Shown here: piece by piece, positions 18,269 through 54,909 of the stretch | Position numbering within the stretch: the first letter of the stretch is position 1 | Layout of the letters: every line of letters begins with the position of its first letter | NCBI GenBank assembly: GCA_964036195.1 | Contig: OZ038453.1 | Location: forward strand, 13,677,206 to 13,741,205 | Direction of reading: 5' to 3' | Length of the DNA: 64,000 nt | Source of the DNA: Sphaerolaimus hirsutus | Lineage: Eukaryota; Nematoda; Chromadorea; Monhysterida; Sphaerolaimidae | Position numbers and translations under genes: made by a program | The notes under the pieces: model-generated | What the model saw: only the letters and a program-made list of their open reading frames with translations | Told to the model about the DNA's origin: nothing | The model's database searches: none

Positions 18269-19358
18269 CTAGTTTACTGGCAGATTTTTGTAAACTCATA
18301 AATCGGCTTTGAACGTATTTGAGTTTACTGGAACGAGTTTTTCTTAATCCCTATCAACTGCAGTTGACAGACACCTGATTCCGGTAAACTCAACTGCGTT
18401 CAAAACCGATTTATGAGTAGTGATGTAAAGGCACCGGGGCACCGGTGCCCCGGTGCTTGGCACCGAAGGGCACCAGCACCGGTGCTGGTGCGGTGCCCTC
18501 GCAATTTTGCCGGTGCCGGTGCCATTTTTTTCAAAATAGCACCGGTGCCGGTGCGGTGCGGTGCCCTTCTTCGAGGGTGCCTTTAGGTGCTAGCACCGGC
18601 CAGAAAAAGTGGGGCACCGGGAAAGGCACCGGCAGGGTTTCAAGGTTGTGAACTGCGGTTATTATTGCACGACATGTGTGTTCATTTAAAAAGTGACCCA
18701 ATCAAATTCACGTTGAACATGTGCCCACATGTGTCACTTTTTTATTGATTTTCTTATGACAAACATAAAAACTGTTGATTTTAAACAATACTATGATCGA
18801 TTCTGAGTCGGATAAAAATGATTGCGACGTGTCCGAAAGGAGCATGTTGTTAAAATCAAACAAACATCCTGGTCCTGGCGCCGAGTACTCCTGGCGCCTG
18901 CAAACGCGCATGGCGTTGGTGCTGGTGCCAACACAAAAAGCGCCATGACTCTTTTGGCTTCAGGTGCCATTTTGCTGTGGCACTATTGGTGGTCAGCGCC
19001 ATGGCCATTGGCGCCATACTGCACCGGCACCATAGATTTTGGTGCTGGGGGCTGGAAAAGTGCCAGGGCACGTTTGGTGCTTCCCGCCAAGGTCCTGGCA
19101 CTTTTAATATCACTACTCAAAATTTTACCCGGTGCGGAGCCATTCGGTGCTAGCACCGCCAACCCTTAGGTGCCGGTGCCATTTTTTTCGGAATGGCACC
19201 GGTGCTGGTGCGGTGCGGTGCCATTTTTTGGCCGGTGCCCCAGGGTGCCAGGTGCCCTTTTCACGCGATGGTAAAGGTGCCGGTGCGGTGCGGTGCCATT
19301 TTACCCGGTGCCTTTAACATCACTATTTATGAGTTTACGGAAAACTGGAAGTAAACTA
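18269..19358. mobile_element. Hairpin MITE, split by a hAT element
   Basis: Outer arms: AGTTTACTGGCAG and GTAAACTCATAAATCGG on the left, ACCGATTTATGAG and AACTGGAAGTAAACT on the right. It belongs to the family at 972-1172. The hAT-like element 18418-19325 sits inside the right arm. The ends are approximate. Confidence 0.65.
18418..19325. mobile_element. hAT-type low-complexity MITE, CACCGG family
   Basis: Ends TAGTGATGTAAAGGCACCGG and its inverse CCGGTGCCTTTAACATCACTA. Perfect 8-bp target duplication TTTATGAG at 18410-18417 and 19326-19333, the hAT hallmark. The inside is dominated by CACCGG/GGTGCC words. A GCGCC-type segment ending ...TTTTAATATCACTA near 19116 appears nested within it. No protein is seen. 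Confidence 0.9.
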
Positions 19359-21034
19359 ATGTGCGCAGCGGCATAAATACTTTGTGCATTTCGCACAAGG
19401 TTTATTTTTTTCGGGGCACCACCCTAACGAAATTTCACCATTTGATAAGTAAAAAAACAACAGTGTTCATATAATCTCAACAATGTTCCTGAAGAGTGCC
19501 GCAGGCGATGGCGTAGCATGTGCCATTACCATTTTTCAGGTACTTTCTCATCACTAGGTAAGGGGTATATTTTTGGCATGTACATTAGAGCCGTTCGGTT
19601 AGAAACTCTACATTCGATGTTTGTCGGCAGCCCCCGCTCCCCAAGCGTTTTTCCTGATCTTTTTTAATTTAGGTGTTTTTTTCCACCGAAAAACGCTCAA
19701 AGTCACTCATTTTTCAAACAATTAACATTCGAAAAAAATTATTTTTTTAAAGATATTGTTCATTGACATTGCATGTATAATCCTAACACACCTAAATTCT
19801 GGCCCTAAACTAGCGTGCGTGAAACCACAATGTACATTGACAAAATCTAGAATCACAAGAGTTTCAGAGGTAGGTAGGTATTTACAAGTTGCATAAAACT
19901 TTGCATGTTCAACATAGAGTGTGTATTTCTTTGTCGTTGCAGAAATGTGTCCCTAAAATACTTAGAATAGGATAAAGTTTTTAAATTTGAATTTATTACA
20001 ATTATAGATTATAACCTTTTATTTAAAGATTTATACAAAATTGTAAATGTAATTATAAAGACGGATTCATTGATTTCAAATATACTTATATTTTACTGAC
20101 AAACAAAAATGAAGATTTGAAGCCACATTTGATGCAAAATATAGGTTCCAGGGAGGTAATATAGAACAAATTCAAGAACACAAAATTATGGATAGAATTA
20201 TCAGACTATTACTATTCTTGCTTTTTCTGACACATATTTGTTCACCAGCAAAAATATTGCTATTTGCACCTGCTTTATCTAACAGTCACCTTATGTTTTA
20301 CAATAAAATGGCTGATGTATTGGCAAATGCTGGTTAGAGGCATTGCATTTCTGTTTTTTTCTTCTTTTTTAAAATTTTTGATTTTTTCCATACTTTATTT
20401 ACATTTAAACAGGACATGAAACCTGGCTATATATGGCACAAGAGACAAAGGAATCAGACTTGAATTTGACACAATTCATAAACAAAGCAAAGTATGTGAT
20501 TTTCTTTTTGAAAATAAATATATGAAAAGTTACATTTTTAGATATTTACAGGCCATATATAGTGCCAGCATTGGATGGAACAAAATGGGAGAAAATACAG
20601 AAAATGGCAAATACAATGTCATTTGATGATGGTTCAGATACAAATGAACTGAATGAAGAGGATTATCCATTGATGGATACAATGTTCAGTGAATGGTAAA
20701 TTTGAAAAATAACAATGTTGATTCTAAAACAATAGAAAATGTGAAATGTTGAAAGTGTGCCAAACCACAAATAAAATAAAATATTCATGCAGTAGTTATA
20801 GGCGCTGGCACTAATTATGTCATTTTATTTCTACTAGATCCCCACATAAATACAAGTATCACAAATTGACACCCAATACAGTCTCAACCCATAAATCCCA
20901 GCCCAGCTGTCCAACACGGGCGCGTTATCCGTTCTCCGCGCCGAGCACTTCGACATCGCCATCGGCAATCACTTCCATCTGTGCTGGCTGGGCATCGCCG
21001 ATGTGATAGGCGTTGACTCCATTGCCTGGTCTCA

Positions 21035-21380
21035 AATTCAATTAGAACCCAAGGCGCGTGAGAAAAGCCTTACGCACACTAGTTGACGACTATGTTAAAT
21101 CTCAACTGGTTCCCATCCCAATTCAAATATTGCTGACTCGTAGCACTGTGCATTATTGTATACACATATGTATACTACAAAACCGCAAAAAAAACTTTTT
21201 TTGCATCACTTTTTTGCATACAGCTTCATTTGTAACCTAATTCAACACTTACATTTGAACGTTGTTCGTCGGCTCGTCAGCAAGCTTTGAAATGGGATCT
21301 GAACCAGAAGACATTTGATGTTGTTGTCAATTAGTGTGTAGGGCCATGTCGGGCGCCTTAGGTTCCAATTGAATCTGGCC
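21035..21380. mobile_element. Nested MITEs inside UGT-B exon 4
   Basis: An outer inverted pair (CAATTAGAACCCAAGGCGC at about 21040 and GCGCCTTAGGTTCCAATTG near 21373) encloses an inner element of about 21066-21345 with ends ACACTAGTTGAC and GTCAATTAGTGTGTAGGGCC. The inner family also occurs at 30676-30843, and a fragment lies near 53440-53500 (shared words TTTGAACGTCGTTCG, GTCAGCAAGCTTTGAA). Confidence 0.75.
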
Positions 21381-21983
21381 CCTGGGCTACAACCTGCGGA
21401 TTTATGCCGGAAATGTGGCAGGTGGCTGGGCTGCCGCCTACGATCAGTACTTTTGTACCCAGTGAGTTTCTGATTTGAGTTTCAAATTTTGGGAAATTTG
21501 AGTTTTGGTTGGAGGTTCGATTATTGATTCCAAAACACTTCTTACTATTGCTGCTTGCATTTTTTGCAGATTTGTTCTCCGCTTATGGAGATGAAATGAC
21601 ATTTTATGAAAGGGCAATGAATATTATGGAGACAATAAACACTAGGAAATACACTGATCAGTACTATGTGAGTTTGAGCATTAATTTTTGAAAAAATGTG
21701 CCTTCAAATGTAATTTTGTGACTCTCAGAGCGCGGGTACAGAGGTTTTCCGCAAACATATCAGACCAGACTACCCAGATTTGCAAGATTTGGCAAAAGAA
21801 AAGGTTCAACTATACATTATGAACGGCATTCAAATGTTGGAATTTCCAGCGCCAAATTTCCCAAATTTCATTTTCATTGGTGGCATTGGTTTGAAGAAAG
21901 GACATGGCGTCTTAAATGAGGTTTTGTCAGACACAGTATTTATAACATTTGATGTTGATGCTTGGTGCTTTTACCATCACTAG

Positions 21984-22180
21984 TAGGGTGTCAACTTTTT
22001 ATTTTCCGTTTTCTGTTTCCGCTTTCCACAGGCACACTTTTTTTCCGTTTCCGTTCCGTTTTCCGGCAAATGCAAAATTTTTGTCCGTTTCCGCAGGCAA
22101 AATTTTTCTGTTTCCGTTTTCCAGCAAGTGCAACAAATTTACCGTTTCAGTTTTCCGTAAAAACTTTTGTTGACACCCTA
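21984..22180. mobile_element. T-rich MITE, CCGTTTTCC family, UGT-B intron 6
   Basis: Ends TAGGGTGTCAAC and GTTGACACCCTA. The inside is repeats of TTTCCGTTTCCG/CCGTTTTCC on one strand. The ends fit the hAT YARNG pattern, but I could not find a clear 8-bp duplication. Confidence 0.7.
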
Positions 22181-22837
22181 ATCTTGTCTAAATAGTCATC
22201 CCATATGTTCAATAAATTGAGCACAGAAATGGTCGAAAGTGTACAATGATGCCAAGTCAGGTGTGATTTTCGTCTCGTTTGGCTCGGTGGCTTCAGCTGG
22301 CTTGATGCCAGACGGCTGGAAGGCGACCATCATACAGGCCGCCCAGCAGATGCCCAGCTACACTTTCATTTGGAAGTATGACTCCATGGACATCTATGGT
22401 AAAGTGCGATAAAAAATAAAAACAGCACACATATTCCTTCGGAAATTTCAGACAGAATTTACAGCCAGGGCCTTTCCCATGCCATGAAACAGTCATCATA
22501 GGTATGTCAAATGTGAGGTAGTGTAAAATGTGTGAGAAGCACATGGCATTTTGCACTTTGACAAACGGTGTGGTACTGGCCCCAGCTTCCGAAAATACCA
22601 GTAATGAGTCAATGCCATCGCAGATAAATTCAAAGTGCCCGAAAATGTGCATGTATCAAACTGGCTGCCGCAATTGGACATGCTGGGTGAGTTTATGATA
22701 AGTGCAAGAAGATAAAAATGGTGGACAAAAGGATGATGGATGAAATGGTGGAAAAATTTCCGACAGGTAAAAATAAAACCTATGCACTACAGGGATGTAC
22801 AGTTTTAAGTTTGCAGTGATTGCATGTGCCTTGCCGG

Positions 22838-22928
22838 ATGTAGAAGCGTCGCAGCGCTGGCGCCAGAAACAAAGCATCTATGGCGTTCTTGGCGCCAAAT
22901 TGCTAGCGCATTTTACATCAGTAGTGTG
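22838..22928. mobile_element. GCGCC-family MITE remnant, UGT-B intron 8
   Basis: A short run of GGCGCC/GCGCTGGCGCC words ending AGCGCATTTTACATCAGTAG, like the right end of the GCGCC elements at 52683-53898 and 54165-54909. The left end is unclear. Confidence 0.5.
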
Positions 22929-23929
22929 GCATTTAGCTCCGCCCACACACGCACGCGTACCTACCGGCCCAATTTAACTTAAAGCATACAAGCAAAATAA
23001 GAATAAATAAATAACATCAAAAATGCTAACTATAAACATTCAAAAAACACTCTCAGCGCACCCGAAAACGTGCGCCTTCGTGACGCACGGGGGGCAGAAC
23101 AGCCTGCTGGAGGCGTGCATCAGCGGCGTGCCCGTGCTCATGGTGCCCCTGTTCGGCGACCAGTTCCACAACGCCGCACTGGCCGCAAGGAGACACACGA
23201 TTGGACTGCAAATTGAGAACAAGGGGGATATGAAGGATAGACCGGAGGTTTTTCTGAATATGCTCAAGGCGCTGACAAATGATAAAATGTTAGTAAAGAA
23301 TGTATCGACCACCGTATATTCTCGAATAAGACCACAGGGGGCTTTTTTCATCGTAGATTTTTTTTGGGGCGGGGGGTTATTAAAGGGAGGGAGTGGTATT
23401 TTTTCCTCAGACCTTTCAGGAAAACTTGCACTTATTCATTACGTATATGAATGCATTCCGTCAACTCATGTAATATGGGATAACTGGGGGTTATTCAAGG
23501 GTTTCAACTCTTAGCAGCGAAACAATTAAAAAAGTAAGATGCAATTTTTCGATTCTCTGAAGATTTTAAGAAGTGATTTTATATCCGAAGAGAACTTGAC
23601 AACTTTCCAAAAACAACCGCAGGTACAAATCCAACGCCGAACGTCTATCAAAAATGTTAATCCACCAACCAGAAAATCCAGAGAAAACTTTGGTCCAATG
23701 GATAAATTTTCTGGCCGAATTCAAGACATTGGAAGTTTATGATTCATATTCAAAGCGTCTGAATTTATTCCAGCAAACTTCCTTAGATGTTATAGCTGTG
23801 ATTTTGGGCATTTTCCATTTCATTTTGCTCACTGCACTACTTTTGATAAGCATGTGCTGTAAATTTTTCAAGAAAAGTGGTAAGAGGAAAACTGAATGAA
23901 GAGGTAGGCTAGGTTTCAAAGATAATAAA

Positions 23930-25375
23930 AGAGGGCTTTAAAACGGTGCGAATTTCTTACAGTGAAATGGCAAATTTTTGGCTTTGAGCCAGGTTAACAA
24001 ACCTTGAATTTGAATGTTTTGACTCTTGTGAATTTATCAACACATTATTTTTTCTAACAAAATTTATTCAAACTAAATATTCATGCTAGATTATTTTTTA
24101 GAAGTAATTTTCTACCTTGTATAGGAGGAATATTGTTTACATATACTAGTACAGTCGTACTATCGCTCAGACGATATAAATATGTAAATAGTTCATCAGA
24201 CAAGTAGATTCATTGTATTTTTGTATAAATAAAACCCATGAAAACTGGGATACAGTGACGTAAAATGCCTAGCTGCCAATTTCCTAAACTAAAATGCCAA
24301 TAGTGCAAAAATGTACATAGCAACCATTAAATAAAAAAAACACACAAACTAAGCTCGATCATGTGAAAAGAAAGCAGTATAATTTTTTAGTACACGCACA
24401 AAATGACGAACTGATAAAAATGGTGAACAGATATGGTATATATTGGATACAATAATTAAAAAATGGGACAACAAGGTTAATTGATAAATAGTGATGTACA
24501 TAATTATGTACACATATTTGTAGCCACAATTAAAATGAAATCAAACCACTTGCCAATTTTATAGATCTCACTTCTCACTATGTTATTGTTAAGGAACAAA
24601 TCAGAAAAAAGTTACACACATGTGATCCAAAACTTTGGCAAGTCCAATTTTGTGCAAAAGCAGACAATTTGTGTACGAAAATGTTGAGAAATGCTTGAAA
24701 ATTTGAGCAAAAGGGGTGCGTGATTTGTGCAAACACAACGAAAGAGAATGTTGATAAATTTTTTCATGCGTAAATACAAAAACATTTCAGTTCTATTTTA
24801 AAGTATTCAGATAAGCGTGATTTGCACAATTCCCAATCACCCCAAAAACGCGATATCTACACACATCAATATTCAGAAAAACCGACAAAAACCATAAATA
24901 ATAAATAATTAATTAAATAATTAATTATGTAGAAAATATACGTTATAGCAACCTACGACAAAAAATAAACCGACGTACAAAAACTCGTTGTATTTTTGAC
25001 TACCATATGGCACCATACAGAGATTCGTGGTGAATACAAACCCTCATAAATCCAGCCAAACGAATATAAATACCGTCAGTTCTCGATTAGTTTCCCTTCA
25101 GCTTGGGAATTGAGGAAAAGGTTAAAAAAGTACCCCCATGAAAAATCCCCTCTTTGTGCTTTGTTTGGTAAACGATATTCAAACATTGAAAAAGACACAA
25201 TTTATTCACGCACGCCATACAATGTTCTAAACGCAACACTTCAGCATGACGTCATCGTCAAAAAATAAAAATCAGCCCCCCCCAAAAAAAAATTTAAAAA
25301 ATTTCATGTGCGAAAATTGCGCTATGGTTTTTGGTTGATTTTGGGTTTTTTGTTGAGAACTGTTTCTATCGATGT
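23930..25375. other. Intergenic, AT-rich, no gene seen
   Basis: Between UGT-B and the first CCGTATT element. It contains AATTAATTAAATAATTAATTA-like simple sequence near 24900 and no credible ORF or exon. Confidence 0.6.
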
Positions 25376-25376
25376 A

Positions 25377-25789
25377 CCGTATTACCTCGAAATACCCCCA
25401 TGGGGGTTTATTATTTCGCCAGTAAAATTTGAGGGGGGGTTAAATCGAGGGTTTTTTTATTATTTCGTCAGAAATTTTCGTAAGGATCGTAGTAAATAGT
25501 AGGCATTTGCATACCCAAAACAGGTAATAAATGTGTCCAAACAGGATTTATTTGGACATAAAAACGTAGATAGCTAACTAGTCTATGTGTAGCTGCAATG
25601 CAAATTAACAGTAATATACATCATGTACATTGCATACATGACGTATTTATTATGTACATGACGTACATCATTCCGAAGGGGGGGGGGTATTTCGAGGGGG
25701 GGGGGTATTATTTCCCCAGCCCATCTTGAGGGGGGGTTAATTCGAGGGGGGGGGGTTAATTCAAGGGGGGATAATTCGAGGTAATACGG
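25377..25789. mobile_element. CCGTATT-type MITE, intact copy
   Basis: Ends CCGTATTACCTCGAAATACC and the inverse GGATAATTCGAGGTAATACGG, flanked by TA at 25375-25376 and 25790-25791. The inside is GGGGG plus TTATTTCG / TTAATTCGAGG words. The uninterrupted stretch around CATCATGTACATTGCATACATG (25622 onward) is the empty-site counterpart of the insertion in the copy at 55892-57807. Confidence 0.85.
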
Positions 25790-25791
25790 TA

Positions 25792-26590: not shown

Positions 26591-27264
26591 TAGGGTTGGC
26601 CGATGTTTTTTTTTACGTTTTTTATTTTAAAAAACGTTGTTGTTTTTTAAACTTGACGTCCGAAATGTTTAAAAAAAAAACATCGACCGAATTTTTTTAG
26701 TACTAAGCACAAGGTATTTTGCAAAAATTTTGCGCGCAAACGCGCAATTTCACACACAAATTGACATTGGCGGTTGTTTTCATTGGTTTTGTGGCATTTT
26801 TAGTAACAAAGTATCCATTTATATATGCTACCATGGGTTAATAAGCCGTCATATGTCGGTGTAGTATATAATATTGAGGTAATGTGCATCCATGTACCTC
26901 CACAGTGTGTAACTTCACTCCCAAAGTAACAACCTCCTTTTATAACCTTGTTTCATCACTATTCCGTGCCAAACTTTACCTGAAGTCACGAACATTTGAC
27001 TATAAGGCGATATACGAACGTATCGACAAAAAATTGATATTTTTTACACAAATCACCACTTATAATGCTATCCCATGGCTCGACAGCCATTATATGGTCA
27101 TATATAACATCAGAGAGTATTGCCACTGTCTGATATACCTATATATGTTGACACAAGGTCATATCTGGGAGCTTTAAAAAAAACAACGTTTTTATTTAAA
27201 AAAACGTTGTTTTTAATAAAAAAAAACATCGAGTTAAAAAAAACGTTTTTTTTCTCCAACCCTA
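26591..27264. mobile_element. hAT-type MITE, AACGTTTTT family, copy 1
   Basis: Ends TAGGGTTGGCCGATG and CTCCAACCCTA. Perfect 8-bp target duplication CACCTAAA (26583-26590, 27265-27272). The terminal parts are poly-T/A words around AACGTT. The core (about 26700-27170) is unique sequence shared with 34731-35399, including GCGCGCAAACGCGC at 26732-26745. Confidence 0.9.
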
Positions 27265-27301
27265 CACCTAAATCAACAAAATTTCCCAACCCCAAACTCA
27301 C

Positions 27302-34730: not shown

Positions 34731-35399
34731 TAGGGTTGGCCGATGTTTTTTTTAAACGTTTTTTTTTAAACGTTTTTTTTTTAAACATGACGTCCGAAAT
34801 GTTGTTTTTTAAAAAAAAACATCAGGCGAAATTTTTGGTACTAAGCACTAGGTATTTTGCAAAATTTTTGCGCGCAAGCGCGCAATTTCACACACAAATT
34901 GACATTGGTGGTTGTTTTCATTGGTTTTGTGGCATTTTTAGTATCAAAGTATCCATTTCTATGTGCTTCCATGGGTTAATAAGCCGTCATATGTTGCTGT
35001 ACTATATAATATTGAGGTAATGTGCTTCCATGTACCGCCACAGTGTGTAACTTCACTCTCAAGGTAACAACCTCCTTTTACAACCTTGTTTGATCACTAT
35101 TCCGTGCCAAACTTTACCTGAAGTCACAAGCATTCGACTATAAGGTGATATACGAACAATATGTCGACGAAAAATGGATATTTTTGACACAAATCACCAC
35201 TTATAATGCTATCCCATGGCTCCACAGCCATTATATGGTCATATATAACATCACAGGGTATTGCCACTGTCTGATATACCTATATATGTTGACACAACAT
35301 CATATCTGGGAGCTTTTAAAAAAAACGTTTTTTTAAATAAAAAAAACTTCTTTTTTTTAAAAACATCGAGTTAAAAAAAAACGTTTTTTTCCAACCCTA
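34731..35399. mobile_element. hAT-type MITE, AACGTTTTT family, copy 2
   Basis: Ends TAGGGTTGGCCGATG and TCCAACCCTA. Target duplication ACGCCAAC/ACCCCAAC (one mismatch) at 34723-34730 and 35400-35407. The core is nearly the same as in 26591-27264, including GCGCGCAAGCGCGC at 34870-34883. Confidence 0.87.
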
Positions 35400-35669: not shown

Positions 35670-36117
35670 CAAGGACGTATCCAGGGGGGGGGCGGGGGGG
35701 CTGCAGCCCCCCCCCCCTTCCCGGGGTGAGACCTAAAATGTCCCGGAAAATGCACCTTTTCCTATATATTTTTCGATGTTTCTTAAAAAATTTTCCGCGC
35801 AAGCGCGCAATTTCTTGCCCATGCATTGTATTTACAGCGGATCGGCCCCTGCAACCAATTTCCTTGGAAATGAACAGATTTTTCCAAACTTCGCTGTATA
35901 TGCATGCATATTTACATACATACAAAGCGGTTCCTGGCGCTGGCGCCAACGCCAATAGCGCCATGGCGTGGCGCCTTTGTATGGCGCTAGCGCCAAAACG
36001 CCTTTCCGTCCCTATATAGTGAAAAAAAATTGAAGGGGGGGGCTGAGCCCCCCCCCGTTCGCCGGCCCCCGTAAACAAGCAGCCCCCCCCCGCTCAAAAA
36101 TCCTGGATACGTCCCTG
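35670..36117. mobile_element. hAT-type MITE, GGACGTATCCAGG family, copy 1
   Basis: Ends CAAGGACGTATCCAGG and CCTGGATACGTCCCTG. Perfect 8-bp target duplication AGTGCGAT (35662-35669, 36118-36125). Pure G and C tracts lie just inside the ends. The core has CGCGCAAGCGCGCAATTTC at 35796-35814 and GGCGCC-type words. Confidence 0.92.
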
Positions 36118-37740: not shown

Positions 37741-38164
37741 CAGGGACGTATCCAGGATTTTTGAGCGGGGGGGGCTGCTTGTTTACGGAGGCCGGCGAGG
37801 GGGGGGGGCTCAGCCCCCCCCCCTAAAATTTTAGCTATATAGTGGCGGAATGGCGCCGGCGCCATTTGTATGCGCCACGCCATGGCGCCATTGGCGTTGG
37901 CGCCAGCGCCATGGAACGCTGTATATGTATGTAAATATACATACAAAACAGCAAAAAGCACAACATTGAGTGTATTTATAGCGATTTGCGACCACAGGGA
38001 GCAAATCTGATGATAATACCCTATGTGTGGTGAAGAATGCGCGCTTGCGCGCAAAATTTTTTACGCTGACGTTGAAAAAGTCGCATTTTCCTGTCACTTT
38101 CTGGTCTCGCCCCGGGAGGGGGGGGGGCTGCAGCCCCCCCCGCCCCCCCCTGGATACGGCCCTG
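37741..38164. mobile_element. hAT-type MITE, GGACGTATCCAGG family, copy 2
   Basis: Ends CAGGGACGTATCCAGG and CCTGGATACGGCCCTG. Perfect 8-bp target duplication AGTTTAAG (37733-37740, 38165-38172). G/C tracts lie at both ends. The core has GGCGCC words and GCGCGCTTGCGCGC at 38039-38052. It is inverted relative to copy 1. Confidence 0.92.
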
Positions 38165-42066: not shown

Positions 42067-45000
42067 ATGAAAATGCAAGAACTTACTTCATCGCCAACAA
42101 TTTCCACCGCAAGTATGGATGAAAATTTGAATCGTGACAACAAAAACAATGCCACAAACGATCGCCAAATTCAGGTAGCGTTTGCATAGCTGTTTTAAGT
42201 TTTCACTTTCAGTATTTTCCCGGGATTACCCCAGCAGGTCTGAGTGGTCTGGGGAAAAATACCCCCTAGCCTCTCGAAATATCCGTTTATGAATACTTTT
42301 GATGAATATGATACTCAATGCTTATCATGTATTTATTTATCAGTGACTGCCACACATTATCTACCTACCGTAAATCCTTGAATGAGACCCTCCCTTGAAT
42401 AACTCCCCCCTGTTGGCCAGGTGAGGAAAAACTAACTCATCCCCTTGAATAACTCCCCCCTGTTGGCCAGGTGAGGAAAAACTAACTCATCCCCTTGAAC
42501 CCCCCCTCTGTGTATTTTAAATGAGTATACTCCGGTTACTTTACACCCTGCACGCGTGGTTCCCGCTGGAAGTGTGCCAACGATGGTTAACGCGTCCGAG
42601 TTTCATAAAAAGATGACAAAATGGATTGTTGTTATAATGTTATTCATTAACATATTCACATCGATGAATTTTTTTCATCTTTTTACGGAAATCGCATGAC
42701 TTAACAATAAATGGCACGCTTCCAACACGAGACATAAATCAGTGCGACGGCAGAGTATCATGTACGCCGAGTACAACCACAATGTGTATTTGAATGATTT
42801 GGATGCTGATGAACATGAATTTTAGCATGAGTACCTTGTTTTTGTATACTGTACTGTTTTTTGTATGTATTTTTGTATTTATACTATGTACATGATGTAT
42901 TAATCCATGCCATCTACCATCTGTGTCCATCTACCTACCTACATTGATACATCTAAATCTACATTGATATATCTGTTTTGTCACTTTTTATCAGGTTTGG
43001 GTATGTAGAACGAAAGCCCATGTTTACTGCGATCCGTTTCGAAAATTTTTGAGGAAATAATGCCCCCCCTCTTGAAATACCCCCTCAAAATGTCCACTCT
43101 GAAAAAATAAACACCCTGGGGGTATTTCAAGGAAATATTTACGGTATTCCACTTTAGCTAAAAAAATTACTTCAATAGGGTGTGAAGTTTTCTCGTATAC
43201 CGGTAGGTAACCGATATTTATTTTTACAATAACAATTAAATACAGTTTATTCTAAATTACCTCAGATGTGCCAATGCAGATGTAGTGGTAAAAGTGCGAC
43301 CAGAAAAAAACGTTCAGACAAAAAGTGCTCTGAAAGTTCATCACAAACAGGGAAAGAGGTTCAAAAGAGAGGAAAAAAGCAAGTTTACCTACCGTATTTC
43401 CTCGAAATACCCCCAGGGGGTTTATTTTTTCAGAGTGAGAATTTTGAGGGGGGTATTTCGAGGGGGGGGGGGTAATTTGAGGGGGGGGGGTATTATTTGG
43501 TCAGACATCTTTTGAACACCCAGACTCAGTACTAAAAACGTACGCAGACCTAGAAAAATGCAACAAAAACCACCATTTATAAGAGTCTATAGCCTTATAT
43601 AAGTATGTAGATGATATAAAACATGTTCTAACGTAACACAATCATTGTTTTTAACCTGTGTTCTGCGTTTCCCAGAGCTTTTGTCGTCTACGTTCCCAAT
43701 ACACTGAATTTTGGGGGGGGGGGTATTTCGAGCGGGGTTTATTAATTCATAGTGGCCATTTTGAGGGGGGTATTTCGAGGGGGGTTTATTAAGTCATAGT
43801 GGCCATTTTGAGGGGGGGGTATTTCGAGGGGGGGGGGGTTATTATTTCCCCAGCCCATTTTGAGGGGGGGTTAATTCGAGGGGGGGGTTAATTCAAGGGG
43901 GGGGGATAATTCGAGGTAATACGGTACATCATGTATGCAATGTACATGATGTATTTATTGATGCCAATTTGCATCGCAGATACACATATACGTTAATATG
44001 TGTACAGATGTACGTCTAAATAACCGATATGTCCCGATATATCCTATTTACCTACGTTTATTACCGGTTTTGGGTATGAAAAAGTGTACTGTTTACAATG
44101 AATTTCATGAAAATTTCTGACGAAATAATAACCCCTCCCTCGAAATACCCCCTCAAAATTTCCACTCTGAAAAAAAAACCCTGGGGGTATTTCAAGAAAA
44201 TACGGTATATCTGAATGCTTTGAATGTTCTCACCATCTACTTATATTTATTTTTGTGTTTTGGCACACACACACCCAACAGAATTTCCACCTGTCATTCT
44301 ATTGGAGGTGTGGTTCAATTGGAGGATGCCGCTCTATTTTTTCGCGAGTGCAAAAACGTGCCAAAACCGGCTGTTCTATTTGAGGTGCCTTACTATGAGA
44401 GGTATGTCATTCAATTTGAAGAAATACGGTATTAGATACCATTTATCGCAGCTCTAAGCATGTGTGAAAAAATGTGAAAACCTCAAAGAGATCAATTCAC
44501 TCTCAGATGATCTATGCAAATTATAACACGAGATCTTGTCTGCTCGATTGTACAGTGAGAATGATTTTCGAAGTATGCGGGTGCACTTTGGTCATGGATT
44601 CTTACATGTTCAAAGACAGTTACAAGAATGTTTCAGGATGCACGGTATGTTTTTGGTTGAAATGTTTTGCTTTAAGTTGTGTAGCACCACTAGTGATGGA
44701 ATGGCGCCATTTGAAGGCGCCAGAAGGCGCCGCGCCATGGCGCCATTCTTTTTCTGTGGCGCCCGCGGCGCCTGGCGCGCAGTCCTAAAAGGGCGGCAGA
44801 ATGGTGCCAACAGCCAACACAATACTTGCACGAATGTTTTTAGAGTATAATAACTGTAAATCCCCCTTATAACAACTGCTTTTTACCACCCAGCCGCCAG
44901 AAATGCGATACTGCGTACTAAACCCCGATGACGAACGCGGTCGAAAGTACACTCCAAAAATCAATGAAAAAATTCAAAATTGCTCCATAAAGTGCCACAG

Positions 45001-46031: not shown

Positions 46032-46248
46032 TAGAAATGGAAAGGCACCGGGGCACCGGTGCCCCGGTGCTGGGCACCGAAGGATGTGCTGGGCACCGAA
46101 GGCTCCCAGCACCGGTGCCTTTTTTCGAGGGTGCCATGCCGGTGCCGGTGCTATTTTTTTGCCGGTGCTAAAGGTGCCAGGTGCCATTTTGACGCGATGG
46201 CACCGTGCCGGTGCGGTGCCATTTTTTCCGGTGCCTTTTCCATTACTA
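46032..46248. mobile_element. hAT-type MITE, CACCGG family, short copy
   Basis: Ends TAGAAATGGAAAGGCACCGG and CCGGTGCCTTTTCCATTACTA. The 8-bp flanks CCCATTGC and CCTGTTGC agree at 6 of 8 positions. The inside is CACCGG/GGTGCC words. Confidence 0.8.
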
Positions 46249-46859
46249 CCTGTTGCTTGATGACAGTACCGCGTGTATACACTTAAATCTACGGTACTAT
46301 TTATCGTCAAGCAACATGACCAAAATTTATTGTCTACATAAAAAATCACCACGTCGCATGATAAGCGTTTTAGTGCCCTGCCAGCAATGGCAAAAACACA
46401 CGTATTAAATACAGAAACTCATTGAGTTGCTGTGTTTATGCTTTACACAGAAACATGGAAAGTCAACATTTTTAAAATGTTCAAAACTCAAATGAGTTTC
46501 TTCTTGAAAAAATTTTTTTAGTTTTTTTATTTGGATTTACATAAATACTGTGTTTAACCGAACAAAATAAGTCATGAGTATACATATCAACAGATCATAG
46601 TTGTTAAAACGTATTTACTTTTAGGTACCCGATAAATACATATAGGTACTCATGTACTGAGTAAATACATATTTGTTTCCTTCAAAAAAGTTTTTGTACT
46701 CACATTTTACGTATGTTTTTTGAAAGTACTTGAGTACAGAAAACATATTTCTGATAGGCATTTATAGAGGTTTTTTAGGGCATGGAAGGGAGAAAAGTGT
46801 GAAAAAGAAAGGCTAAAAATGGAGAGAAAAATAGCCAATATGGGTATATATATCACCAA

Positions 46860-47207
46860 TGTTGTGCATGTGGAATGCACATAGTGATTGAACCCGCAAC
46901 TATTATGTTTCACTGTTCATTTATAAGGTAGCAGTAAGAATGCAACATTAGTCACTTCTGACTCATTTACAGATCTATTTCCCCCTTTCCCCAGGTGCTC
47001 AGATATCATCTTATGCCTTTACCAATAAAGTTGTGATACTTTAGAAGGTTGAGATTTGAGGTCAGCTGAACATTTAGGGAACTCTCTTCCATTTCTGCAT
47101 ATTTGCAAGTGGACAGCAGGATCAGACCTTTTGCCAGTCTTGAGTCCTGAACACTTGAAAGCGGACATTCTTTGGTGCCCAGAGCTCTCACAGCCTGGCG
47201 CACTACA
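46860..47207 (+). repeat. 5' LTR
   Basis: Matches 50585-50932 at offset 3725. It contains CAATAAAG near 47027, a candidate polyadenylation signal. It is bounded by TG...CA. Confidence 0.9.
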
Positions 47208-47267
47208 TGGTGATCGTACTTTACTGAAAACGTGACAAGTTTTCAGTCGAATCCCCGAGCAGCATAC

Positions 47268-47690
47268 ACAGGTGGTGCACCCAGCCGAGCGTCGGCCACA
47301 GGTATCGCTGCGAGTGCTCAGGGCGCCTGGGCAAGGGATGCTGATTTGACGCTCATGGAGCGCATTCACTGAGCCGCGGGCTCAACGCAGATTTACGCAG
47401 TTTACACAGAGTGGTGCACTCGGCCGAGTAAAGGTACTGCGGCATACACTCAGGGTGCCTGAGTATAAAAAACCAGCGCTTGTGAAGCGCACTCATTGAG
47501 CCGTGGGCTGATTTACGCAGCATACACAGGTGGTGCACTCGGCTGAGCGTCAGTTTAAGGTACTGCAGCATACACTCAGGGTGCCTGAGTATAAAAAAAC
47601 AACAGTGCTTATGAAGTGCACTTATTGAGCCTGTGGGCTCAACACAGATAAAACAGTGTACCAGCTGAGTGTCAGCTGAAAGCATTGCTG
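47268..47690 (+). repeat. Tandem repeats in the LTR element leader
   Basis: Three to four diverged units start GGTGCACYCGGCYGAG at 47274, 47413 and 47532 (spacing 139 and 119), each followed by GGTACTGC, CACTCAGGGTGCCTG, GCGCACTCATTGAGCC and TACGCAGCATACACAG. They lie between the primer site and the ORF, where a packaging signal would be expected. Confidence 0.8.
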
Positions 47691-47883
47691 AATCTGCTCT
47701 GTGTGACAGATCACAAGTTTTAAAGGTGCACTTGTGGAGCGACAGTTGTCAATGAGTGACGACAGTTTTTTCAGCCCAGAAAGCGTAAATTCATGCAGAA
47801 TGGCGGGCAAGTTGCAGTTGACCAGTGATGAATTCACAGATAAAATCACAGAGTGGTTAGCGGGGCGGTAACGACCAGCACTA

Positions 47884-50379
47884 GTGTTCATGGCATTCAA
47901 GTTGCTAGAAAAACGGCAGGCCACATGGCCAAAATTTAAAAACCCAGCAGAATCGACCACGAAAGTGCTAGCAAAAGATTTGCAGACTATGGCAACAGCG
48001 TATTTCACTACTAACAACACATTGACAATTGATGACCCGTATGGGGATGGCGTAGGTGACACAGGAGCGACCGCTGACCCAGATGAGGATGACACAGCAA
48101 GCAAAGTGGATGACCTGATCCAACTGGTCCAAAACACAATGAGACAGCAACAAGCTGCATTGCAGCAGCAACAGGCGGACATCGCAAAGTTGACAGTACA
48201 GGTGCAACAGGGGCAGGGTACAATGGCAAGTAGCAGCCAAGTACTGCCGCCAGATGTGAAGCCGGCAATGCCGATCAATGCAGGTACAGACTGCTGGAAA
48301 ACAACCACTGAAGCCCGACTGGCCACGTTGCGACAGGATACATTGCTCAATAAAATCATCCAGTACATCGAATTGTTTGTGATGACCCCAGCTGACCACA
48401 TGCAGTCCCTATCACAGGCGGCGCTGTTGACCACATCACGTGACAAAATGGGTGCAGGTCATGTCGCAGGGGCAGCCAGGAAGCAACAACAATTTGATGG
48501 AGAGTCCAACGCAACCACTGGGCCATTTAAATGGTGGCTCCATGGAATTGCGCAACAGGCGATTGGAGTGCCAGAGGCACGCCAGCAGATGTATTGGACC
48601 TTAGTTTTTACCACTTGTCTCACAGGGGAAGCGCAGCAAAGGTACCAGGCTGTGAGTGCAGACCGGTGCCATGATGCACTGTTTGTCATTGACAGATTGA
48701 CGCACATTTACAGGATTGACCACCGGCTGCACTCAGTGTCAGACTGGTATGCGCTGAAAGCGAAGCCGGGCGATTCTATTGTAGAATTGCAGACTAGGCT
48801 GAGCACAGCTTTCCACCATGTCAGCACCACCATGTCCGACCAGGACCGTGAGAAAATGATTGGCGATAAGCTTTTTATTGAGGTCATGAAGCTGATCCCA
48901 ACGGCATGTTGGTACTCATGGCGAGAAAGATGGCAGGAGAATTCATGCGACCTAGATACTGCAGTATCAAAAATGGAAGCAGCCAGAATCGAGATCCAGA
49001 AAAATCGATTGCAGAAGCACAATGAGCAAAAGGACCGGTGCCACAACTGGACCTCAAATTACAGGTTGCAGAGTGCAGTTGCTGGTGAACCAGCAGTTAA
49101 GGCAACTTTTGATCCGCAGACACACAAGGGGCCATGGTGTACACACTTCATGCACAGAAAACCCCTGCCACATGACTCAGCACAGTGTTACGTCAACCCC
49201 AGCTCCATGGAATTTCAGCCAGACAGGGTGGAGAGAATTAGGCAAGGGTTGGCACGGAGGGGGAAGACAGAAGATGATGCCATCACATGGATGAAGAAAA
49301 AGTGCCAAGAAATGGGAGTGACATACCAGGCCCAGGACAGCGCAGCCATGTGCACACTAGAGGAACCTGTGAGTAATGACTGGGATGCACCAATCAGCGA
49401 AACAGGTGATGAACACGACATTGACGACTGGTGCCCCATTGCATCCTGGGCTGACAGTCCAGAAAGCGTGCACAGGTGCTCACAGGTGGGGGAACCAGAC
49501 CCAGTGGCCACGATACAGTTCATGGGTGTAGATATCCAAGGACACATTGACACTGGCTGTAAAATCGGGATTTTTATAGATGACACAGTGCTAGAGCAGG
49601 CATGGGCAAAAGCAGGATGTGATCCAGGGGCTGAACGACAGAAATTTAAGCCATACCCATATGCCAAACTGCACACTTCAGGTGAAGCGATTCAAGGGAA
49701 AAATTTGAGGGTGTATGAAATGCAGGTCACACACAGGACACCCGACCAGGTCACACACACTGACAACCTCCCCGCTGTAGTAAAGCTGATGGCACATTTG
49801 CCGCCAGCGGACCCACTGCTGCTGTTGGGCCATACAGCAATTTGGGGAAAGTTACAGATTTTGCAGGATGCACATGCAGAACTGGACAGGTTATCACAGA
49901 TTTACAAGGAGTCGCATAGCACATTTTATGCAGGAAAAGACCAAAATGACAGTACTTTCTGCGCTGCAAATGTGCAAGTTCTGACACAGACAGACCAGGT
50001 GACAGATTACCTATGCAATCATACAGGGTTGCTAAAAACTTTCAGCACCACCGCAGATAGACTCACAGATTTGGCAGTATGCAAAGGGAAACTAGCAGGT
50101 CTGGGGGGCCAAGCCCGCCAGTGCTTGCAGCATACACAGAACCTATCAGTGGCACTAATCCCCAAACATCAGCAACAAGAGCAGGGGCCCTTGAAGTCGA
50201 GCACAGTGCGACCGCAGCACAGACCAGTGGAGCAACATGCCAAGAAAATCCCTTCCCACGCTTTGCATTGGAATGTACCCAGCGATGGGCTGGTGACTGA
50301 CAAGTTGGCAGCGGACAACATGCACAAAAACCCAAAGAAGCCTAAAGTGAAATGGCGGCCAAACGATCCACACTATTGA
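47884..50379 (+). CDS. Gag-protease polyprotein of the LTR element
   Basis: 831 codons; ATG at 47884 follows two stop-containing leader frames. Residues 70-110 are Gln-rich coiled coil. A capsid-like helical region follows (about 200-390). A Cys/His knuckle of the C-x2-H...H-x4-C type (CTHFMHRKP...C) begins near residue 419. An aspartic protease follows with GHIDTGC near 554 and LLLLGHT near 645, as in retropepsins. The C-terminus is basic (PKKPKVKWRP). It ends without any polymerase domain. Role by family: virus-like particle assembly and polyprotein cleavage in the cytoplasm. Confidence 0.82.
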   Translation: MFMAFKLLEKRQATWPKFKNPAESTTKVLAKDLQTMATAYFTTNNTLTIDDPYGDGVGDTGATADPDEDDTASKVDDLIQLVQNTMRQQQAALQQQQADIAKLTVQVQQGQGTMASSSQVLPPDVKPAMPINAGTDCWKTTTEARLATLRQDTLLNKIIQYIELFVMTPADHMQSLSQAALLTTSRDKMGAGHVAGAARKQQQFDGESNATTGPFKWWLHGIAQQAIGVPEARQQMYWTLVFTTCLTGEAQQRYQAVSADRCHDALFVIDRLTHIYRIDHRLHSVSDWYALKAKPGDSIVELQTRLSTAFHHVSTTMSDQDREKMIGDKLFIEVMKLIPTACWYSWRERWQENSCDLDTAVSKMEAARIEIQKNRLQKHNEQKDRCHNWTSNYRLQSAVAGEPAVKATFDPQTHKGPWCTHFMHRKPLPHDSAQCYVNPSSMEFQPDRVERIRQGLARRGKTEDDAITWMKKKCQEMGVTYQAQDSAAMCTLEEPVSNDWDAPISETGDEHDIDDWCPIASWADSPESVHRCSQVGEPDPVATIQFMGVDIQGHIDTGCKIGIFIDDTVLEQAWAKAGCDPGAERQKFKPYPYAKLHTSGEAIQGKNLRVYEMQVTHRTPDQVTHTDNLPAVVKLMAHLPPADPLLLLGHTAIWGKLQILQDAHAELDRLSQIYKESHSTFYAGKDQNDSTFCAANVQVLTQTDQVTDYLCNHTGLLKTFSTTADRLTDLAVCKGKLAGLGGQARQCLQHTQNLSVALIPKHQQQEQGPLKSSTVRPQHRPVEQHAKKIPSHALHWNVPSDGLVTDKLAADNMHKNPKKPKVKWRPNDPHY

Positions 50380-50584
50380 TCCATGATTTTGTACTGTGGT
50401 TCATTTCTGTTTAGTATTTTGAATGCAGTTTCTCTTTTTTCATTTTATCCAATTTATTCAAGTCAATTCTACCTGATGTGTAAATTTATTTCTAGGTTTT
50501 GATCTGTTCAACAAATTTTACTATTTTTCATGGGTATTTTTCTGTCTTTTCTTTGTGGCTCCCTTCAGTTGCCATGGAGGGGGG

Positions 50585-50932
50585 TGTTGTGCATGTGGAA
50601 TGCACATAGTGATTGAACCCGCAACTATTATGTTTCACTGTTCATTTATAAGGTAGCAGTAAGAATGCAACATTAGTCACTTCTGACTCATTTACAGATC
50701 TATTTCCCCCTTTCCCCAGGTGCTCAGATATCATCTTATGCCTTTACCAATAAAGTTGTGATACTTTAGAAGGTTGAGATTTGAGGTCAGCTGAACATTT
50801 AGGGAACTCTCTTCCATTTCTGCATATTTGCAAGTGGACAGCAGGATCAGACCTTTTGCCAGTCTTGAGTCCTGAACACTTGAAAGCGGACATTCTTTGG
50901 TGCCCAGAGCTCTCACAGCCTGGCGCACTACA
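50585..50932 (+). repeat. 3' LTR
   Basis: Copy of 46860-47207, preceded by the polypurine tract at about 50576-50584. Confidence 0.9.
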
Positions 50933-51258
50933 CCAAAAAGCTGAAAATAAGTGAATTTGAAATTGAAAATGGGACAAAAAATTCAAATTAGTGATTTTGA
51001 CTGAAAATTGGGTGGAATTTCCTCAAAAATAAACACTATTACCCACTACTCAGGGGGGGGGGTGAGTAAAAAATTAAATACTTTACATTTACATATACTT
51101 TGGAAAAGTTCAGTACTTTTAACAACTCTGCAACAGATGCATACAACAAGTATCCAAAAAGTAACAAAATACAACTGGTATCCATGGACCTGGTCATTTT
51201 GACAATGATTTGAATTATGATGGATGCATTGAAGAGAAACATTCAGCTCACTATACAG

Positions 51259-52298
51259 CAGAGTTGCGAAACCGTATTTACGCTTACCCGAAATACCCGG
51301 GTAAATGGGTATTTATACTTTCGCTTACGCTTATGCTTTCATAAAATACCCGTATGCTTTTTTACGCTTTTCCGGGTACTAAAAGCGTAAAAAAACTTTT
51401 CACACGGTTCAGTTTTACACTTTTGAAAAAGCATAACACCACAAAAAAGGGTGAACGAAACTGCGTACCAAAAAAATTACTGCGTGCGTGCAGTAATGTG
51501 CTGGAAATAGTGGCACATTTACAAATTGTGTCGCAGGTTGAATGTCTTGCTAATACTGTGTCGTCGAGCAAAATCGTGGCTTCAGATAAGAAATTTTGGG
51601 CTGAAAATGGATTCCGACGACGATGTTGTCGCTGTCGACAGCAGTAACTCCAAGTTGGAAGATACAAAGATGACTTACCGTGTTTCTTCTGATAGAACGG
51701 CAGCCTTCAATGGAACGGCACCTCCCATAGAGCGGCAGGCAAATAAAGTTGACAAAAAAATTGAACGGTGCTCTTCTATTATTGTGCCTACACACACTAG
51801 TTTTCACCGTGACTTCGTGTGAAAACTGAAATTTTTTCAAATGCAAATTAATGAATGATTTAATTTCAAATAAATTTGAATTTGAATTAAAAAAAGTTTA
51901 ATTTGAATATTTGATAACTAGAACACATAAAGCATACAATAAGAGTAGGCTGGATGACGCCATGTCGCCATTTCAGTTTTCACACAAGTCACGGTGAAAA
52001 CTAGTGTGTGTAGGGCCATTAGAAGAAATACGGTAAGTGTCGCTGCCGATGAATTGCCAAACAACATATGAGGGCAGACTACTAAGTGGACATCCGAAAA
52101 TTGTCGCTGAGAGCTTGATTTGGAAAGAATTCACTGAGAAAACATCTCTTAAAAAATTTTTACGCTTACGCTTTTATTAACGCTTTCCCAGGTATTTTAA
52201 AAATACCTTACGCTTTCAGTATCCATACTGAAAGTTTGGAAAGTGTATTTACGCTTACGCTTACGCTTTCCAAAAATACCGGTATTTTAACAACTCTG
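51259..52298. mobile_element. hAT-type MITE, TACGCTT family, with two nested elements
   Basis: Ends CAGAGTTGCGAAACC and TTTTAACAACTCTG. Perfect 8-bp target duplication CTATACAG (51251-51258, 52299-52306). Both flanks consist of TTTACGCTTACGCTTT words. Inside, about 51678-52034 is a CCGTATT TAGAACGGC element (TTACCGTGTTTCTTCTGATA ... TTAGAAGAAATACGGTAA), itself split at about 51787-52017 by a hairpin with ends GTGCCTACACACACTAG and CTAGTGTGTGTAGGGCC: three levels deep. Confidence 0.9.
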
Positions 52299-52682
52299 CT
52301 ATACAGAGGTGAGGGCTAACCCCAAAAGCATCACCTGGTCAGTCATAAGGTATTATCTACAAGGTATTATTTCATTTTTAATGGGCCTAAAACTGAGTCC
52401 CTTGTGCCTTGTTGATAGGTGCAAGAAAGTTTTTAAGTGATAATATTTGAATGTGTTCACTGACGTTTTTTTTGCAAAAAATAGAAAACAATCGCTCAAT
52501 AACTTCGGCACTGGTAGGACGTGGTTACCACAGTTGTGAGAATTACTGAACTTTTTTAAAAAGTATAAGAAGATGAGTATAAGACCGGATAGTATAAGAC
52601 CGGCACCGGCATGGCACCCCTGAAGATTGCAATGGTACCGGTGATGGTGCGGTGCCATTGCAATCTTCAGGGGTGCCATGCC

Positions 52683-53898
52683 TAGTGATGTAAAAAGCGC
52701 CAGACTTTTGGCGCCAAGCGCCAAAAGCGCCATGGCGCTTTTGGCATGCGAGCGCCAAGCGCCAATGGCGCCACAGCAAAATAGCGCCAAGCGCCAAAAG
52801 CGCCATGGCGCTTTTCTGGACCATGGCGCCAAGCGCCAATGGCGCCAGAGGATGTTGGCGCCAAGCGCCAATAGCGCCAGCGCCAAAAAATTTTGCTGCT
52901 CATAAAGTGCAACCATGCTAATGCAGTGTTAGTTACATATTTGTGTGAGAAGCAAGATATAAATAAGTCAAATCGAGTTAACTTTTCTTTATCTGATGTT
53001 ATTCTACACCTGAGAGTTGGGTATTTCTTCTAATAGAATCGCATACCTCCAATAGAACTACACCTACAATAGAACGGCAGGTTTTAGCACGTTTGCGTGC
53101 CCACGAAAACAATAAAATGGCACCCCCCCCCCAATATAACGGCAGGTAGAAATTACGTTGGAAGATTCATATGGTTGTTTTCACATTTGGTTTTGTTTGA
53201 ATTGATTCTGTGATATGGAATGTTGTTTATGTTTCATAAAAACACTATGTTCAAATGAAGAAGGTGCGAAAAATATTGGTGAATAAATAGAATGGCAGCC
53301 TCCAATAAAAAGGCACCTCCAATAGAATGCCAGGTAAAAAAGTTGGGAAAAAAATAGAATGACGCTTTTCTATTCGAAGAAATACGGTAACAATGGCAAG
53401 CCATCTCGAAAAAGTGCTTAGATTTTTATAGATACGCCGATGAACGTGCATTTGAACGTCGTTCGTCGGCTCGTGAGCAAGCTTTGAATTGGGATGGGAA
53501 TCATTAGGCCCATTATTCCGGAAAAGTTTTGGATGGAACGGATGCACGGAAATGGTTTACAAGATATACAAGTACGTAGATTTGTTCTTCCTGGAATACG
53601 CTTAAACACATTTACTCATGTAAATTATGCACACAAGGTATTTTTACATAAAAAAATGATATATTTTTTTGAACCACTTGGCGCTTTTTTGGCGCTTTTT
53701 AAAACGCTAGCGCCAAGCGCCAATGGCGCCACGGCATCATAGCGCCAAGCGCCAAAAGCGCCATGGCGCTTTTCCGTAGCACAGCGCCAAGCGCCAATGG
53801 CGCCACAGCAAAAAGGCGCCAAGCGCCAAAAGCGCCATGGCGCTTTTTGCTTTGGCGCTAGCGCCAGGCGCCAGCGCCATGGCGCTTTTACATCACTA
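52683..53898. mobile_element. hAT-type MITE, GCGCC family, copy 1, nested in a CACCGG element
   Basis: Ends TAGTGATGTAAAAAGCGCC and GGCGCTTTTACATCACTA. Perfect 8-bp target duplication GCCATGCC (52675-52682, 53899-53906), which lies inside a CACCGG-family element whose right end CTTTAACATCACTA is at 53988. Both flanks are arrays of GGCGCCAAGCGCCAAAAGCG. The middle holds a TAGAACGGC element (about 53025-53388) and a CTAGTTGACA-family fragment near 53440. Confidence 0.92.
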
Positions 53899-54164
53899 GC
53901 CATGCCGGTGCCGGTGCCATTTTTTTCAGAATAGCACCGGTGCCGGTGCGGTGCGGTGCCATTTTTCCCGGTGCCTTTAACATCACTACTCACCACAAAA
54001 TATAGAAAATGTAAAATACTTTTTTTACTCGTACTCATGCGTAAATGTGAGTAAAATACGTTTTTCCCCAGGAAAATGTAAAAGCGAGTACTTTTCCCCT
54101 GGAAAACGTGAAAAAGCCACTTCTATTTACATGTGAGAGTCAGTTTTACACGGGAAGACATAAT

Positions 54165-54909
54165 TAGTGATGTGAAAAGCGCCAGAGTTTTGGCGCCAAG
54201 CGCCAAAAGCGCCATGGCGCTTTTCACATTGCGGCGCCAAGCGCCAATGGCGCCAAACGATTTTAGCGCCAAGCGCCAAAAGCGCCATGGCGCTTTTCCA
54301 GACCGTAGCGCCAAGCGCCAATGGCGCCAGAGGACAATGGCGCCAAGCGCCAATAGCGCCGGCGCCAAAAATTTCTGGGGATAGATAGATAGCTGGAGCG
54401 TTTGGGGCGGGGGGGGGGGGGGTGGGTTACCGTGGGGAAAAATAATTGTGATATGATAGATAGAATGTTTTAACGTGTACATTCAGCATGCTATTTAGGT
54501 AGTTTAAGTTTCAGTAGGTTACTCTTTTAAAGCAAGTCAAGTTGTGCTATTTATATTAAAATTATGAAATTTGGATGTGTGAAGCATAATCGTTAGGTGA
54601 TGGAAAAATTGGATGGAACAAAAAAAAGCAATCATCTCATATTTTTGATAGCATTTTTGATGCCACCTATCGAAATCGTACAGATGGTATGGCGCTTTTT
54701 TGGCGCTTTTTAAAGTGTGAGCGCCAAGCGCCAATGGCGCCACGGCAGTATAGCGCCAAGCGCCAAAAGCGCCATGGCACTTTTGGAGGTCTCGGCGCCA
54801 AGCGCCAATGGCGCCACTGCAAAAAGGCGCCAAGCGCCAAAAGCGCCATGGCGCTTTTTGGTTTGGCGCTAGCGCCAAGCGCCAGCGCCATGGCGCTTTT
54901 ACATCACTA
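54165..54909. mobile_element. hAT-type MITE, GCGCC family, copy 2
   Basis: Ends TAGTGATGTGAAAAGCGCC and GGCGCTTTTACATCACTA. Perfect 8-bp target duplication GACATAAT (54157-54164, 54910-54917). The flanks are GCGCCAAGCGCC arrays and the centre (54400-54670) is AT-rich unique sequence. It appears inserted in an older TACGCTT/GTACTTTT-word element whose right end CACAACTCTG is near 55168. Confidence 0.92.

Follow-up and report, generated by a model that had tools for sequence, protein, structure and literature searches.

Ten hAT elements in the window

The 64,000-bp stretch of the Sphaerolaimus hirsutus genome analysed here (contig OZ038453.1, positions 13,677,206 to 13,741,205; the window) carries ten short elements that are read as non-autonomous deletion derivatives of hAT transposons, and in most of which copies of a short sequence, here called a word, crowd the ends. 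An initial interpretation of the letters alone (the sequence-only reading) had delimited all ten by YARNG ends and 8-bp target duplications, eight of them perfect. This was borne out: in 10 of 10, both ends carry a YARNG tip, the two tips being inverted, and the element is flanked by an 8-bp duplication, which matches at 7 of 8 positions for 34731-35399, at 6 of 8 for 46032-46248 and at all positions for the rest. When the window was scanned de novo for YARNG tips that match each other at 9 or more of 12 positions and are flanked by a duplication of 7/8 or better, nine of the ten were recovered, 46032 being missed, and no further call was made; five block-shuffled windows averaged 0.6 calls. 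The elements, named hereafter by their first coordinate, and their associated features are as follows.

18418-19325, unstranded: predicted non-autonomous hAT element, tip TAGTGATGT, word GCACC/CACCGG; perfect duplication TTTATGAG
26591-27264, unstranded: predicted non-autonomous hAT element, tip TAGGGTTGG, AACGTTTT words in a weak array; perfect duplication CACCTAAA
32512-33210, unstranded: predicted non-autonomous hAT element, tip TAGGGTTCAAAC, word CGGGAT; perfect duplication TTATTGAC
34731-35399, unstranded: predicted non-autonomous hAT element, sister of 26591; duplication 7/8
35670-36117, unstranded: predicted non-autonomous hAT element, tip CARGGACGTATCCAGG, G/C tracts; perfect duplication AGTGCGAT
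37741-38164, unstranded: predicted non-autonomous hAT element, oppositely oriented sister of 35670; perfect duplication AGTTTAAG
46032-46248, unstranded: short hAT element, word GCACC, almost entirely array (18 GCACC, 0 GCGCC); duplication 6/8
51259-52298, unstranded: predicted hAT deletion derivative, tip CAGAGTTG, word AAGCGTA/TACGCTT; perfect duplication CTATACAG
52061-52141, plus strand: remnant of transposase BED exon 1 within 51259-52298 (tblastn, element positions 803-883)
52683-53898, unstranded: hAT element inserted in a GCACC element, tip TAGTGATGT, word GCGCC; perfect duplication GCCATGCC
53899-53988, unstranded: right end of the older GCACC element that hosts 52683-53898, tip ...TTTAACATCACTA; no left tip seen
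54165-54909, unstranded: hAT element, tip TAGTGATGT, word GCGCC; perfect duplication GACATAAT

The proposal of one word per family holds in part. One-word arrays are strong in six of the ten elements, namely 18418 and 46032 (GCACC/CACCGG), 52683 and 54165 (GCGCC), 32512 (CGGGAT) and 51259 (TACGCTT), but weak in 26591 and 34731, with six and eight copies of AAACGT, respectively; 35670 and 37741 have G/C tracts in place of a word at their ends, and GCGCCA copies in mid-element. The interiors of 26591 and 34731 are 90% alike across 229 bp, and those of 35670 and 37741 are 73% alike across 216 bp. A genome search with 54165 gave at least 137 matches (40 of 4,017 candidate places scored). Since at 52529-52580 and 53987-54141, on either side of the GCACC element that hosts 52683, the sequence can be aligned with the left end of a CAGAGTTG element found elsewhere in the genome (L037; regions fetched from the genome are cited as L and a number), the window is nested three deep from 52529 to 54165, with a GCGCC element in a GCACC element in a CAGAGTTG-type end.

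Word arrays are subterminal

The arrays are subterminal and not body-filling. In 60 ends from 30 fetched or window elements of at least 1 kb, counted with word classes of our own choice, the number of words per 50 bp from the tip is 3.4, 3.4, 3.8 and 2.5, then 0.6, then 0.02-0.2, so that the arrays nearly end 200-250 bp from the tip. The mean coverage by repeated 6-mers, over 49 calls where it is defined, is 0.67 in the terminal 200 bp, 0.19 in the interior and 0.18 in the flank. This set is made up of the window plus the first 40 loci, which were selected because they resemble the GCGCC element or have a PF05699 match; one call overlaps and duplicates another (L019 988-2487), and L024 and L025 are near-identical. 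Words occur in the interior of a few elements: 18418 (8 GCGCC and 7 GCACC), L056 (38 CGGGAT) and L039. The claim that the element bodies are expanded from the word thus applies to short copies only, which are almost wholly array.

In the polar classes, words that face inward at one end face outward at the opposite end, with orientation counts at the two ends of 137:0 and 0:153 for CGGAAA and of 74:0 and 13:62 for CGGGAT. The ends were sorted by orientation, which favours apparent polarity in the weakly polar classes GCGCC and GCACC.

The sequence-only reading had further suggested an inward amplification of the end sequence itself. We reject this, as the exact 8-bp tip recurs inside 0 of 39 elements and one tip carries several words. 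It had also regarded unique interiors elsewhere, with arrays confined to decayed copies, as evidence against its view; interiors are indeed mostly unique, but little-decayed copies with perfect duplications have arrays as well.

One tip goes with several words

Each element of the strong families uses one word almost exclusively, and one conserved tip goes with several words. Three tips were counted 16,617, 9,542 and 15,578 times in the genome against 37, 122 and 244 for their controls, the first pair of counts being for TAGGGTTCAAAC and its reversed control. At 14,672 places the TAGGGTTCAAAC tip is accompanied by GRKAY, and the first 100 of these comprise 54 GGGAT, 25 GATAT, 20 GGGAC and 1 GAGAC (this 100-row set and the one below were taken from the top of their listings, come from a single contig and had their row codes entered by hand). 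Neighbouring plus and minus ends agree in 29 of 30 pairs, where 39% would be expected; the exception pairs GAGAC with GGGAC. Examples of the CGGGAT/CGGGAC/CGATAT counts within an element, for both ends together, are 23/1/1 (32512), 0/34/0 and 0/0/29. These three families have a common 12-bp tip and, as judged by eye only, further stretches of their alignment in common.

Elements with the TAGTGATGT tip likewise carry either GCGCC (49 GCGCC and 0 GCACC in the ends of both 52683 and 54165) or GCACC (40 GCACC and 0 GCGCC in the ends of 18418), and GCGCC copies hold at most 3 GCACC. Usable TAGTGATGT elements came from 12 of 16 fetched regions; L086 was poor and L071, L081 and L084 gave none.

Words changed in concert on a conserved scaffold

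In the CAGAGTTG class, where sister families can be aligned on one scaffold, nearly all word copies have switched in concert and the scaffold has been kept. Between the AAGCG and AAGTG families, 204 of 228 non-word columns are identical, and 13 of the 15 word places read AAGTG, none AAGCG, the other two being gapped or misaligned. The AAGCG and AAACG families are identical in 196 of 233 non-word columns; of the 15 word places, 12 read AAACG, one AA-CG and one ATACG, one is misaligned and again none reads AAGCG. Within the ~145 bp examined per end, the word places are dispersed throughout and lie in both orientations. The AAGTG consensus derives from two full elements, with which six further single ends agree, and across these eight AAGTG ends 60 of 64 word places read GTG, with 0 GCG and 0 GCA.

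Elements of this class were obtained from 8 of 13 fetched regions (none from L089, L090, L094, L095 and L097). The end set and tree omit three degenerate copies (L031, L107, L109) of 28 P ends. Twenty extra single ends comprise 12 P ends, used or dropped as degenerate, and eight TTAAA ends, of which L125 has AAGTG words, whereas L119-L124 and L126 belong to other or unclear classes and are uncounted. In a tree of 92 non-word scaffold columns, four AAACG elements are set apart with a support of 0.98. The scaffolds of L096 and L115 lie near those of AAGTG and AAACG elements and their words are mostly AAGCG; L096 is 80% like the AAGTG element L087 over a 153-bp interior stretch.

A pattern of three neighbouring words, with eight variants allowed per word, matches the genome 4,200 times and its control 0 times. 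Among the first 100 of these matches, 34 are ACG-ACG-ACG, 25 are GCG at all three words and 22 are GTG at all three, giving 81 concordant triplets against 10.6% expected under independence and a maximum of 24 in 10,000 shuffles. In the titles and abstract openings listed by our searches of the open-licence literature on hAT subterminal repeats and miniature inverted-repeat transposable elements, we found no description of such concerted word replacement across sister families.

Transposase-bearing relatives

There are 28 matches to PF05699 (Dimer_Tnp_hAT) across the 348-Mb genome, and 22 of them lie inside elements bounded by tips and duplications; those without a bounded element in the DNA read are at L016, L020, L023, L027, L031 and L035. 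The bounded elements fall into four tip classes, TAGGGTGTCAA (words CGGAAA/AAACGG), TAACGATGG (TTCGAA), CAGAGTTG (AAACGTA) and TAGGGTTCAAAC (CGATAT). An element of autonomous size was seen in the CAGAGTTG class only, and with another word than 51259: L037:3044-9049 spans 6,006 bp, has tips CAGAGTTGTTA and a perfect duplication CCTTGGCG, and carries the word ACGTACGCG at both ends. Its BED exons lie near one end and its dimerisation exon (Dimer_Tnp_hAT, 4.9e-17) near the other. The spliced BED finger scores 22.6 bits against PF02892 (Pfam cut-off 20.6), and further exons are plausible by eye for an RNase H-like DDE core, although no catalytic Pfam family was matched. The hAT-type tips, the 8-bp duplications, the word arrays in this 6-kb relative with BED and dimerisation domains, and the 22 bounded PF05699 matches together identify these as hAT elements with subterminal repeats.

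A BED finger was seen in the spliced exons of L037 and as the remnant in 51259, both of the CAGAGTTG class; two peptides of BED exon 1 detected the remnant by tblastn (E=4e-5 and 7e-6). Seven transposase peptides gave no match in eight further window elements (46032 left out), nor did any of the nine window elements tested show a dimerisation region. Because 51259 keeps only an exon remnant and no other transposase piece turned up in the nine, the window elements are taken to be probable non-autonomous derivatives. Many of the fetched relatives similarly keep exon remnants of the transposase.

Among the other BED loci, L100 is 86% like the second BED exon of L037, with its own tips beyond the stretch read; the CGGAAA array just upstream belongs to a separate TAGGGTGTCAA element that ends at position 488. 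The remaining fetched BED matches are exon-1 remnants or unclear. As a separate observation, BED exons cluster at L101 (C1:12784200-12788000) and at C1:7466186-7488779. L101 holds two BED gene pieces without these tips alongside, and one CAGGGGTCTCC element lies within it; the BED clusters of L101 may be host genes of transposase origin.

Comparison with known systems

The statement in the sequence-only reading that no described group has this design is too strong, as a hAT layout with subterminal repeats is known from Ac, Hermes and Herves. What follows draws on parts of the cited papers. The Ac transposase binds multiple AAACGG hexamers in ends of ~200 bp, and Ds elements are deletion derivatives of Ac or share little with it beyond tips and hexamers (PMC3260210). 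Here, only the TAGGGTGTCAA class resembles Ac in its word, with 15-22 AAACGG in five of nine elements; AAACGG is not among the three listed words of the other four, and the ten window elements have other words. In contrast to Ac, the present elements have up to 49 words in two ends, the word varies among families with a shared tip, and a concerted switch separates sister families. The tip sequence of Ac also differs from the tips found here.

The BED fingers of Hermes bind AAG(T/C), a site that, as described in the part available, resembles the AAGC and AAGT of the words here; its repeats are sense at one end and antisense at the other, and Hermes requires ~220 bp at each end (PMC10368747). 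The word polarity described above is tentatively Hermes-like, the strand naming being unstated in the available part of that source. The Herves transposase binds CG/AATTCAT near the tips (PMC3143072), and AATTCA repeats are implicated in the activity of Kat1 (PMC4763223). Both share short near-tip motifs with our elements, but have few copies, and the available parts of these sources mention no sister families with switched motifs. CACTA elements (En/Spm) also have short repeats at both ends that are bound by an element-encoded protein, and are a separate superfamily with 3-bp duplications and CACTA tips.

On the protein side, most BED/Hermes domains of hAT origin that were tested on arrays prefer 8-mers of their own, often CGG or GCGC and otherwise AT-rich, and the four hAT-encoded BED domains match their own subterminal regions, according to the part of the study at hand (PMC8097297). 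The words here are of the kind preferred by these domains. Whereas the CGGBP-type BED/Hermes domains (hAT-19) in that part of the study illustrate the diversity of readers across species, the present elements show the site side within one genome, mixed copies included.

Probable readers of the words

It is probable, in our judgement, that the words are sites for the BED domain of the transposase and that they track the specificity of their reader. Each word would be the binding site of its family's transposase, contacted through the BED zinc finger, and the many sites per end would load transposase near the tip. If a transposase lineage changed its specificity, elements with more matching sites would be moved more and, for this reason, variants would multiply until the new word was matched at nearly all ~15 sites; the spacers and the tip would stay as before, perhaps read by the catalytic part. 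The genome would then keep parallel families that differ mainly in their word, each answering to a different reader. Of the ideas in the sequence-only reading, that of many transposase sites per element therefore fits best, given that the arrays occupy ends of ~200 bp, are also found in the 6-kb relative with BED and dimerisation domains, and follow a known hAT design; binding, the identity of the reader and its change are steps that we infer.

A further-reaching proposal, to which we give an even chance, is that one ancestral end was re-spelled several times, all dispersed sites switching with each change in BED-finger specificity. This would have given parallel, mutually exclusive mobilisation systems from one element, and the words with their readers would amount to a natural recognition code for BED fingers. 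How a DNA-binding protein changes its target when many sites must follow is a long-standing question, and here a single genome records the AAGCG, AAGTG and AAACG switches on a measured conserved scaffold, with some copies mixed, and GCGCC and GCACC under a shared tip. The co-evolution of transposases and transposon ends can thereby be tested with a small number of proteins and oligonucleotides.

Several observations weigh against the reader-driven scheme. Hermes retains ~70% of its activity when left-end sites beyond 50 bp are mutated, and auxiliary transposases were judged unlikely in the available part of that work (PMC10368747); distal sites therefore need not all be used. In contrast to this tolerance of distal loss in Hermes, words beyond 50 bp have switched here too, which argues on evolutionary grounds for a role of the distal subterminal repeats, a point the Hermes experiments left open. 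The second BED exon is clear in four places only, with its own ends just in L037, and among the fetched BED loci no recognition helices could be matched to a pair of sister words. In the scaffold tree, most nodes of which are weak, the AAGTG elements are not united in a single clade, and L096, L108 and L115 mix GCG and GTG words. Nineteen of the 100 triplets are not fully concordant, and the 100 rows share ancestry and are thus not independent trials. The scaffold comparison is quantified for the CAGAGTTG class only, the G/C-tract families (35670, 37741) fit a word model poorly, and the AAGTG consensus has lost three of its seven non-word CpGs, as a mutational origin of the switch would have it.

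Of the alternatives, the one that survives best, although we consider it unlikely, is that a host protein, such as a domesticated BED/CGGBP-like factor or a reader of chromatin or methylation, reads the words, with the arrays recruiting or evading it and the words following that factor. BED exons do occur apart from detected ends, as two pairs at C1:12784430-12787389 (L101), with no hAT tips flanking in the 3.8 kb read, and as six matches at C1:7466186-7488779. In addition, many words contain CpG, and the pooled observed/expected CpG ratio is 1.44 in the ends compared with 0.87 in the interior and 0.92 in the flank. However, AAGTG has no CpG, the GCACC and G/C-tract elements have no CpG excess, and different tip and transposase lineages use different words at once in one genome, for which a single host factor would not account.

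Less plausible still is that no reader is involved, and that the words are homogenised by replication slippage, by template switching as gaps are repaired or by gene conversion, so that a chance variant spreads. Slippage, which the sequence-only reading had raised for the ends, fits the varying number of tandem 6-bp words, one unit being missing in L087, L092, L096, L115 and L118. It leaves unexplained how dispersed and oppositely oriented copies come to switch the same base: the word copies lie between unlike spacers, in both orientations and at both ends, and for the spacers to be kept at the levels found (204/228 and 196/233) with 13/15 and 12/15 words switched, conversion tracts would need to be only a few bases long.

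A purely mutational switch, for example by deamination of CpG in methylated words, is very improbable and was rejected on strand bias and non-CpG changes: GCG to GTG is a CpG transition, and GTG and GCA sites are scattered in some copies, but decay should yield GCA about as often as GTG, whereas rows with a GTG majority have 72 GTG, 2 GCG and 0 GCA (the altered sites in GCG-majority rows being 5 GCA and 2 GTG), four of seven non-word CpGs are kept in the AAGTG consensus (three of seven in that of AAACG), the change from AAGCG to AAACG affects a base outside the CpG, and the CGGGAT/CGGGAC/CGATAT set is likewise unexplained by deamination.

Other features of the window

An open reading frame (ORF) of 2,927 amino acids at 6552-15335 (plus strand) has endonuclease (PF03372) and reverse transcriptase (PF00078) domains, and is flanked by 450-bp direct repeats that are 100% identical (5721-6170 and 16111-16560). 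The region is perhaps a full-length long interspersed nuclear element beside a truncated copy, or the repeats are perhaps real terminal repeats. The region 46860-50932 has an 835-amino-acid ORF between identical direct repeats of 348 bp whose ends are TG...CA. The ORF has no Pfam match and no relative in one protein search; the region looks like a young non-autonomous long terminal repeat element. An inverted repeat (58401-59323 and 60720-61641) is 91% identical over 929 aligned positions, and the ORF at 60511-61167 partly reads as X. Lastly, G-run units of the type AATTCGAGGGGGGGGT recur in several repeats, at 25670-25791, 43448-43926, 55941-55991 and 57644-57809.

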